From positions 1 through 38,026 of the forward strand of contig JALUWM010000116.1 in the NCBI GenBank assembly GCA_027019465.1: DNA of 38,026 bases, given 5' to 3'. This DNA is from Campylobacterales bacterium (GTDB lineage Bacteria; Campylobacterota; Campylobacteria; Campylobacterales; Nautiliaceae). Below the pieces are notes generated by a model, which did not search any database, had not been told where the DNA came from, and worked only from the letters and a program-made list of their open reading frames with translations. Shown here piece by piece: positions 13,816 to 17,484 of this stretch. Both the position numbers and the translations under genes were made by a program. The stretch's first letter is position 1, and each line of letters begins with the position of its first letter.

Positions 13816-14166
13816 TTATTTGATAAACATTTTTTTTAGTTTTTGAGCTGCTTTTGTCATACCTAATTTCATTCCGGAATATCTCATTATTTTTGCCATT
13901 TGTTTATATTTGTCTTTATCATAACAGGTGTTTGGACATTTTCTACATTTTGGTTTTGGATCATTAGGACATTCTTGAAGTTTTGAAATTGCATATTGCA
14001 ATAAATTATGACATTCTTCACATAAAGACACCTCAAATTTTAAAGAATTATCTAAATAAGGTACAACATAATCTTCTTTTTTTTGATTTGTATGTTTATC
14101 ATTACAATGTATAGAAAAAAATTTTTTTAGTGTATTTACTTCATTTTCGAATTTTTCAAAAGTCAT
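13816..14166 (-). CDS. YgbA family protein (nitrous oxide-stimulated promoter family)
   Basis: 116 aa; CEECHNLLQYAISKLQECPNDPKPKCRKCPNTCYDKDKYKQMAKIMRYSGMKL matches the E. coli YgbA Cys/MRY pattern as I recall it. Confidence 0.85.
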   Translation of the reverse strand: MTFEKFENEVNTLKKFFSIHCNDKHTNQKKEDYVVPYLDNSLKFEVSLCEECHNLLQYAISKLQECPNDPKPKCRKCPNTCYDKDKYKQMAKIMRYSGMKLGMTKAAQKLKKMFIK

Positions 14167-14183
14167 TTTTTGCCTTTTTTTAA

Positions 14184-14189
14184 ATCATA
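14184..14189 (-). promoter_or_regulatory. Putative -10 element (TATGAT) of the ygbA-like gene
   Basis: Minus strand TATGAT about 18 nt upstream of the ATG at 14166. Confidence 0.45.
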
Positions 14190-14211: not shown

Positions 14212-14225
14212 TTGATTAGCGTCAA
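14212..14225. promoter_or_regulatory. Crp/Fnr-family binding site TTGAT-TAGC-GTCAA
   Basis: 9/10 match to the TTGAT-N4-ATCAA Fnr/Dnr consensus; centre 14218.5 is about -41.5 from the TSS implied by the -10 at 14184-14189; overlaps the RM stop codon (14222-14224). Confidence 0.55.
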
Positions 14226-17020
14226 AATTTTTCTATTATTTTTATTTCTTCATTATTCAAATTATAAAGTTTATAAACCATTTCATCAATTTTTGAAATA
14301 GATTCATTTACTTTTTTTTCTAACTTTTCAATCTCATCTAAAATTTCTATTTTTTCAGTTGGGGTTAGTTTATCAAGATATTTTTTATATTTTTTGATTT
14401 TCTCTTTTGAAGTTAAAATTATATCAACTAAATTGATAAAAGGTTGTTGCTCATTTTTAGTTAGTTTTGGAATTGGGAGTTTTTCAAATTTATTGATTTT
14501 AATTTCCCCATCAATTCCACCTCCTGAATAGAATTTATAAAATATTTTATATATAAAATCTGAATTTAAAAAAGCTGTTATATATTTCAAATTTTCTCCT
14601 GTTAAAATATAACCCGTTGCTTCTATATAAAATTTTTTTGTATCAAAGCAAAATTGAGGTGATTTTACAATTCTTGAAAAGACGATTTTTTCTTTTTCAA
14701 AATCTTCTAAATAGGCACAATTTCTAAGGTTATAAAGAGTTGCTCCTTTATCACTTCTTTTTGCTAATTTATCAAAATATTTATAAAGATGTTCTTTTAT
14801 TGCCGGATAATTATTTACATCAACCGATGGATTATTGTGAGTATTTATTAAATAGAACCCCTTAAAATCACACTCATACTTTTTAATATCTCTACCTCTT
14901 AAAAGTGGCTTAATAATTTCAGCACTTTTATTATCTTTTTTGATTAACTCATTCTTTTTCTCTTCATCAATAATAAAGGCTTCGTTAAGCCCTGTTTTAA
15001 TTCCAAAATTTATCTTAATATCCCAATTTTTTAAAGGAGTGCCAAGTTTTTCTATTTTTTTCTTAATTTCAAGCTCTTTTGGAGTTACAAAAACAAAACT
15101 ATCTATACTTAAATCATCTTGCTTCATTTCAAAGCAGTTTTGAAAATCTTTTAGACAAACTTTAAAAATATTATCTTTTTTATAGCCTTTTTTTAAAATT
15201 GTGATGGCACTATCAACCGAAGCATCTTCAAAAACTTTTACCCCGCTAAAATCCACAATATTTTTTATAGAAGTTTTTGTTAAAATTAGTTCCCTTAAAT
15301 TTTTACCATATTTTGCTCTAAAAAATTTATTAGAGCAAATAAATCCATTAAGCCCATTTTCTTTTAAAATATTGTAAGCTAATTCATAAAAATAGACAAA
15401 TAAATCAGCTGTACCACTAAACACTTTATAGAGTTTTTTTAGAATAGGTTTTATATCTTTTATCCTCTCTTGTCTTACATAAGGAGGATTTCCAATCACC
15501 ACATCAAATCCGCCTTTACTCATAATTTCAGCAAAAAGTTCATTCCAATCAGCACTTAGGGAATTTGCACATTTTATATTTGATGATAAATCAGATAATG
15601 CCCTATCTCTTTTTGCAGTTTGAAGCCAAAGACTAAGTTTTGTAATTCCTACACTTGCTTCATTTATATCCACTCCAAAAAGATTTTTTTCTATAATTTC
15701 TTTATCCACATCCATAAATTCAAACAGATTTGCCCCGCTTTTTATAAGTTCATTTTTTATAAATTCGTGCTCTTTTAGTAAGTATCTAAATGCAGCATTT
15801 AAAAATGCTCCACTTCCACAAGCAGGGTCTACTATTTTTAGATTATCCAAAAATTCTCTATATTTATGAAGTTTTTTTATAGTCGGCTTTTGTAGTTTTA
15901 ATTCTCGCTTTTTCTCCTCACAAAGTTTTTCTACCGTATTTTTAACAATAAACTCTGTTACAAACTTAGGAGTATAAAAAACTCCATCTTTTTTTCTTTT
16001 ATCTACTATTTTATGACCTTCGATTAGCTCTTCTTTAATAGCTTCTAAGTCACTTAAAGACTGCTCAAAAATATGCCCTAAAACTTCAACATCTATATCT
16101 TCACTAAAATCATAAGCCGATAAAGTAGCTAAATCATCTTTTATAATTTCATTATCAATTATTAAACTTTCTACTAATTTATCGGGTTTAAATAGATTTC
16201 CGTTATATTTTGGGATATTTAGTTTTTCATTTCCTTTATCGATAAATTGAAAATATTTTTTATAATATTCGTATAAAGGTGTTTCATCTCCCCATTTATG
16301 AGTTTCTTCGTAATGTTTAATAATTGTAAAAATAGTGTTAGCAGGAATCAATCCTCTATCTTCGGCAAATAAAATAAACATAAATCTATCAAGTAGTTTA
16401 TTTACAGCGTGTAAAATTTCTTCTTTTGAAATAGTTGGATTGTTTTTAAGTAAATTATTTATAAGATTTAATCTAAATTCACTATATTTTTTATAAACCT
16501 CTTTTGTTATTTCCTCTTGAGTTTTTGAGTTTTCTTTTAGCTTTGCAAGAGCGTGGGTTTGAATAATGTTTTGATTTGTCAAAGCGTATAAAATAGGATA
16601 ATTTTCTCTTTTAGTCAAATCAATAGAAAAGCACTTATCACTGCTGTCTATGTAAATATCAAATTGTTTAAAATTGGAAATAAAAACATACTCACAATTA
16701 GGTTTTTCATTTTTGTATCTAAATGCTTGGGCGATAATATCTCTGTTTGAAATATCTTTATTGCTACTTTTTAATTCAATTATGGCAATTGGATTATTGT
16801 TTTTATCAAAAATTACCCCATCTGCTTTTTTGGAATCGGTAGAGTTTTTAACCTCTCTTTTGTAATTCCAATTTAAAAATTTTCCTAAAAGAGCTAAAAA
16901 CTCGGCGCCGTTTGCGTCTTCTGCTATAAATTTGTTTTTGGTGACAAATTCATAAATTTTATCAAAATTAGGAGTTTTAAAAGATTTTACAAAATTTTTA
17001 AGTAAAGATTTTTGAAACAT
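14222..17020 (-). CDS. Type IIG/Eco57I-like restriction-modification enzyme (nuclease + N6-adenine methyltransferase + specificity domain)
   Basis: 932 aa; N-terminal PD-(D/E)XK-like GVIFDKNNNPIAIIELKSS; motif I KIVDPACGSGAFLNAA; motif IV DVVIGNPPYVRQE; TaqI-like C-terminal specificity region. Confidence 0.9.
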   Translation of the reverse strand: MFQKSLLKNFVKSFKTPNFDKIYEFVTKNKFIAEDANGAEFLALLGKFLNWNYKREVKNSTDSKKADGVIFDKNNNPIAIIELKSSNKDISNRDIIAQAFRYKNEKPNCEYVFISNFKQFDIYIDSSDKCFSIDLTKRENYPILYALTNQNIIQTHALAKLKENSKTQEEITKEVYKKYSEFRLNLINNLLKNNPTISKEEILHAVNKLLDRFMFILFAEDRGLIPANTIFTIIKHYEETHKWGDETPLYEYYKKYFQFIDKGNEKLNIPKYNGNLFKPDKLVESLIIDNEIIKDDLATLSAYDFSEDIDVEVLGHIFEQSLSDLEAIKEELIEGHKIVDKRKKDGVFYTPKFVTEFIVKNTVEKLCEEKKRELKLQKPTIKKLHKYREFLDNLKIVDPACGSGAFLNAAFRYLLKEHEFIKNELIKSGANLFEFMDVDKEIIEKNLFGVDINEASVGITKLSLWLQTAKRDRALSDLSSNIKCANSLSADWNELFAEIMSKGGFDVVIGNPPYVRQERIKDIKPILKKLYKVFSGTADLFVYFYELAYNILKENGLNGFICSNKFFRAKYGKNLRELILTKTSIKNIVDFSGVKVFEDASVDSAITILKKGYKKDNIFKVCLKDFQNCFEMKQDDLSIDSFVFVTPKELEIKKKIEKLGTPLKNWDIKINFGIKTGLNEAFIIDEEKKNELIKKDNKSAEIIKPLLRGRDIKKYECDFKGFYLINTHNNPSVDVNNYPAIKEHLYKYFDKLAKRSDKGATLYNLRNCAYLEDFEKEKIVFSRIVKSPQFCFDTKKFYIEATGYILTGENLKYITAFLNSDFIYKIFYKFYSGGGIDGEIKINKFEKLPIPKLTKNEQQPFINLVDIILTSKEKIKKYKKYLDKLTPTEKIEILDEIEKLEKKVNESISKIDEMVYKLYNLNNEEIKIIEKF

Positions 17021-17022
17021 TT

Positions 17023-17484
17023 TTATACCTTAAAGTCATCAAAATTTTGTCTTATGGCCTCATATAAAATTATTCCTGTGCTAACGGCTAAATTAAGACT
17101 TCTGCCTTTATCTGTCATAGGAATGGTTATACATTGGTCTTTATATTTATTTAAGATATTTTCGTCAATTCCTTTTGTTTCACTCCCAAAAACTATAAAA
17201 TCTTCTTTATTAAATTTTGCTTTAAAATAGGGCTTATTTGTTTTTGTAGTAGCAAAGTGCATTTTATTAATATCATTTTTTTTAAAAAACTCATCTATAT
17301 TTTCCCATACTTTCAAATCAAGTCTTTCCCAATAATCAAGTCCGGCTCTTTTAACGGCTTTTTCGCTTATATCAAATCCAAGAGGTTTAACTAGGTGAAG
17401 TTTCGCTCCTGCATTGACACAAAGTCTTCCTATATTTCCGGTATTTGGCGGAATTTGAGGATTAATTAAAACAATATTAAACAT
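17023..17484 (-). CDS. trmL: tRNA (cytidine/uridine(34)-2'-O)-methyltransferase TrmL
   Basis: 153 aa SPOUT protein: LINPQIPPNTGNIGRLCVNAGAKLHLVKPLGFDI...VFGSETKGI...IPMTDKGRSLNLAVSTGIILYEAIRQ. Confidence 0.94.
   Translation of the reverse strand: MFNIVLINPQIPPNTGNIGRLCVNAGAKLHLVKPLGFDISEKAVKRAGLDYWERLDLKVWENIDEFFKKNDINKMHFATTKTNKPYFKAKFNKEDFIVFGSETKGIDENILNKYKDQCITIPMTDKGRSLNLAVSTGIILYEAIRQNFDDFKV

Follow-up and report, generated by a model that had tools for sequence, protein, structure and literature searches.

Several described systems come close to the arrangement analysed here. For the delta-proteobacteria, the available part of Rodionov et al. (2005, PMC1274295) describes an HcpR1 regulon in which Crp/Fnr control of hcp operates through the site TTGAC-N4-GTCAA. 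By that description the likeness to our case extends to the missing FNR cysteine cluster and to the inclusion of hemerythrin-like genes, and helix residues P/S180 and E181 of HcpR1 go with TTGAC half-sites; ygbA is not named among the regulon members in that part of the paper. Within the Campylobacterota, the Nss family (NssR of Campylobacter jejuni; NssA, NssB and NssC of Wolinella succinogenes) consists of Crp/Fnr proteins involved in nitrate, NO and N2O responses, and here the likeness lies in their description and in their site, TTGA-N6-TCAA (PMC11539149, PMC6682613). Regulators and sites of this kind are known from Wolinella and have served to interpret Nitrosophilus, whose exact sites start 48-49 bases before the predicted starts (PMC11539149, PMC6682613). 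For Nss proteins, nap, nrf, nos, nor or globin genes have been described as targets, whereas here they are hcp and ygbA, and C. jejuni NssR differs in having TTAAC-N4-GTTAA together with A180/Q181, according to the same part of PMC1274295. In Nautilia profundicola, a har/hcp promoter motif, CATTGACcgcaGTCAATG, was interpreted in 2009 as a site of the NnrR/DNR type; the available part of that description does not connect it with ygbA, with a distance to the -10 or with any one regulator (PMC2628731). In E. coli, ygbA likewise belongs to the NO response, but its regulator there, NsrR, is a repressor of the Rrf2 family and has a different site, in contrast to the Crp/Fnr-type class II site considered here.

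The DNA analysed (the window, 38,026 nt in its entirety) appears to belong to a MAG of a deep-sea vent member of the Nautiliaceae, a 70%-complete assembly; among named genomes, its YgbA has its closest hits in MAGs of Nautiliaceae and Campylobacterales. The earlier note had proposed that a Crp/Fnr box in the class II position precedes a YgbA-family gene in this window, and each element of that claim stood. The gene matches Pfam PF11756 at 55 bits and exceeds the cut-off of NCBIfam NF007718, and the box and the -10 hexamer are where they had been placed (Table 1).

Table 1. Positions of ygbA, its upstream neighbours and the elements of its putative promoter in the window
Feature	Position	Strand	Basis or remark
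ygbA, 116 aa, YgbA_NO family (PF11756)	13816..14166	(-)	Pfam and NCBIfam match
Likely ribosome-binding site AAAGG	14173..14177	(-)	sequence, inference
-10 hexamer TATGAT	14184..14189	(-)	22 bp past box; N22 kept in relatives
Crp/Fnr-type operator TTGACGCTAATCAA (TTGAY-N4-RTCAA)	14212..14225, centre 14218.5	(-)	sequence and 13/19 family orthologues
Type IIG restriction-modification gene, between trmL and ygbA	14222..17020	(-)	boxed relatives: trmL directly before ygbA
trmL, tail reads FDDFKV	17023..17484	(-)	relatives' trmL 3' end encodes box (F-D-x-x-Q-stop)

Read on the minus strand, towards ygbA (14225-14212), the box is TTGACGCTAATCAA (TTGATTAGCGTCAA on the plus strand, 14212-14225); nine of its ten defined positions agree with TTGAT-N4-ATCAA and all ten with the relaxed form TTGAY-N4-RTCAA. 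The gap to TATGAT is exactly 22 bp, and this hexamer implies a transcription start near 14177, which would put the centre of the box at about -41.5, the classical activator (class II) position for Crp/Fnr regulators. Relative to that implied start the box occupies about -48 to -35 and the -10 hexamer -12 to -7, so that the box begins about as far upstream as the Nitrosophilus sites do. Since the ygbA ATG lies at 14166, the leader would be very short, about 11 nt. An equally good -10-like hexamer, TATTAT, follows the box at 17 bp, and we prefer TATGAT because the N22 spacing is kept in relatives. A weak -35-like element, ATGAAA, lies 17 bp ahead of the -10 and begins at the base immediately after the box. 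Basal transcription of ygbA is therefore possible, and a dimer on the box would cover part of the -35 region. Two other readings of these bases were rejected: as a plain -35 element, TTGACG is too far from the -10 (30 bp), and as a terminator hairpin, the 5-bp stem of the box does not appear when the region's fold is predicted, and there is no T-run immediately after it.

A short inverted repeat could arise by chance in AT-rich DNA, and the 38,026-nt window alone holds eight one-mismatch sites against 5.7 expected, which is no more than chance. The case for the box therefore rests on comparison with relatives. An orthologue of ygbA is present in 19 of the 21 Nautiliaceae genomes, and 13 of these 19 are preceded by TTGAY-N4-RTCAA, starting 59-80 nt before the ATG; when the same 150-bp upstream regions were subjected to 500 dinucleotide shuffles, a mean of 0.05 and a maximum of one were boxed. 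In 12 of the 13 boxed promoters a -10-like hexamer (at least 4/6 matches) follows at exactly N22, the distance that a class II promoter requires, the spacing in genome G005 being 23. Across the 21 genomes the combination of box, N22 and TATNNT occurs 45 times, compared with totals of 81 for ten longer and 137 for twelve shorter control spacings (about 8-11 per spacing), although the genomes are related and neither these counts nor those of conservation are independent trials. The excess over the shuffles together with the fixed spacing refutes a chance match, to which we assign a negligible probability, and on this comparison the ygbA box is a genuine conserved site; a lack of the box upstream of orthologues, which would have refuted the earlier note, was not observed. 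At the remaining six family ygbA genes the box is missing, and another ORF precedes ygbA in at least four of them. In some boxless relatives (L020, L024, L031, L033) the ORF directly ahead of ygbA is another one, about 160 aa long and without a clear match in Pfam.

Conservation could also reflect protein coding, since in most relatives the box forms the last codons of trmL (F-D-x-x-Q-stop) and might be kept only for the TrmL C-terminus and stop codon. The reading frames refute this. In genus g3 the box lies within trmL but in another frame, and in the present genome it lies outside trmL, in a third frame, over the stop codon of the type IIG restriction-modification ORF (14224-14222). As the frame of the box within the ORF upstream of ygbA thus varies among three, it is the DNA that is conserved and not the peptide; moreover, the same box stands before hcp, where there is no trmL, which makes a purely coding origin very improbable. 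The box region of this genome, TTTGACGCTAATCAATGA, would itself encode F-D-A-N-Q-stop, resembling the trmL tail of relatives. From this we infer that the restriction-modification gene was inserted in such a way that the operator stayed beside ygbA and trmL came to end in FDDFKV. Operator and trmL have here been separated naturally, and the promoter survived the arrival of a 2.8-kb gene beside the box. The restriction-modification gene, absent between trmL and ygbA in boxed relatives, ends in the operator and leaves it intact.

At hcp, each of the 18 readable promoters of the family has the ygbA-type box, invariably with TANAAT at N22, and in genomes G017, G018 and G019 the sequence before hcp is identical to the N. 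profundicola motif (available part of PMC2628731). Before ygbA, G017 and G018 lack the box. In several genomes boxes also face the bacteriohemerythrin gene beside a candidate regulator, with one mismatch in the present genome. A matching regulon, whose absence would have refuted the earlier note, is found at hcp and, in several genomes, at bacteriohemerythrin genes. The regulator gene in question encodes a Crp/Fnr protein, A, present in nearly all genomes of the family, where its gene and hcp mostly share a contig and lie no more than a few kb apart; the bacteriohemerythrin gene often adjoins it, and in this genome A (G000:C65:9727-10359) lies between the two. Both features of an HcpR-type regulon, a Crp/Fnr gene near hcp and a box before hcp, are therefore present. 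The recognition helix of A, PETLSR, predicts TTGAY half-sites. The FNR N-terminal cysteine cluster is absent from A, which has two cysteines only (CAMDSD, DVCMQ), neither in such a cluster. The Crp/Fnr paralogue that the earlier note wanted identified is most likely A.

Another candidate could be a second paralogue, B, which has a PETLSR or AETLSR helix and occurs in most relatives (L059-L068, L200-L202); the present assembly, 70% complete, yielded no copy of it. In a tree of A, B and other Campylobacterota homologues, B stands on a separate branch from A, and A groups with the other homologues. With its ETLSR helix B could bind the same site, and the class II operator, though real, might then be bound mainly by B or by both proteins, with oxygen, iron or redox state instead of NO as the signal. 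The nearly identical recognition motifs of A and B fit this explanation, as does a similar box, TTGATATATRTCAA, conserved in relatives with N22 before feoAB (L017 1501-1514; G000:C171:14248-14261), which would suit iron or redox control and may be the site of B or a shared one. However, the flank of the feoAB boxes, RTCAAAAA, differs from RTCAATG, the boxed genes that adjoin A are hcp and the bacteriohemerythrin gene, and in other families it is A-like and not B-like proteins that adjoin ygbA. We give this explanation some, although a fairly low, probability.

We consider it quite probable that the box is a class II operator of the Nss/HcpR/Dnr type, through which a Crp/Fnr activator, probably NO-responsive, controls both ygbA and hcp. 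The families involved (HcpR, DNR, Nss) are what suggest NO as the signal. Under nitrosative stress a Crp/Fnr dimer, NO-bound and probably haem-carrying, would become activated and bind TTGAC-N4-ATCAA, the inverted repeat whose centre is at about -41.5. From this position it would make contact with RNA polymerase where the -35 region is poor, so switching on ygbA, hcp and probably also a bacteriohemerythrin. An alternative is a repressor operator, at which the bound protein blocks the promoter until NO relieves it, as with NsrR at E. coli ygbA (cited in the available part of PMC1274295). There is also a precedent at hcp itself in HcpR2 of Desulfovibrio desulfuricans, which has been described as a repressor (PMC5701242). 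The centre of the box is, however, at the activator position. As for NsrR itself, no Rrf2 gene was found in this incomplete genome, and the relatives mostly have a single one, which adjoins flhA-like genes in the three that were inspected; no NsrR-type gene was seen linked to ygbA, which speaks against control by NsrR. Repression of either kind seems quite unlikely to us, and we favour activation by A.

At the level of the class, 249 genomes were sampled and YgbA was found in 61 of them. Another Campylobacterota family, f6, contains six ygbA genes that stand back to back with a gene for an A-like regulator, and a perfect box lies between the two in all six; a -10 at N22 is not clear there. A perfect box with N22 also precedes ygbA in two genomes of f3 and in a seventh of f6, others have one-mismatch boxes at N22, and at many other ygbA genes among the sampled genomes no box was found. 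Judged from these sequences, box-type control of ygbA is common in the class but not universal.

The ygbA box, kept in most relatives and matching the one before hcp, is genuine, though as a control site of a familiar kind it is no surprise. With the hcp box published in 2009, the link to ygbA appears to be an extension of that finding; a partial literature search found no paper placing a Campylobacterota ygbA under such a site. We know of no established biochemical role for YgbA. The conserved promoter layout shared with hcp connects YgbA with the handling of NO in vent Campylobacterota and allows a simple test of its function there. It seems somewhat likelier than the contrary that ygbA is under a Crp/Fnr class II activator in the Campylobacterota while it is under the NsrR repressor in E. 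coli. The gene would then have been recruited independently into NO regulons whose regulators are unrelated, and this would argue strongly for a role of YgbA itself in NO defence, alongside Hcp.

Boxes with similar geometry occur before other genes as well. Some, with a spacing of 21-22 bp, precede a gene about 280 aa in length that matches rubrerythrin weakly (L009, L070, L087), and a perfect box with N22 and TATAAT precedes a carbon-nitrogen hydrolase gene (L015; G000:C160:18434-18475).
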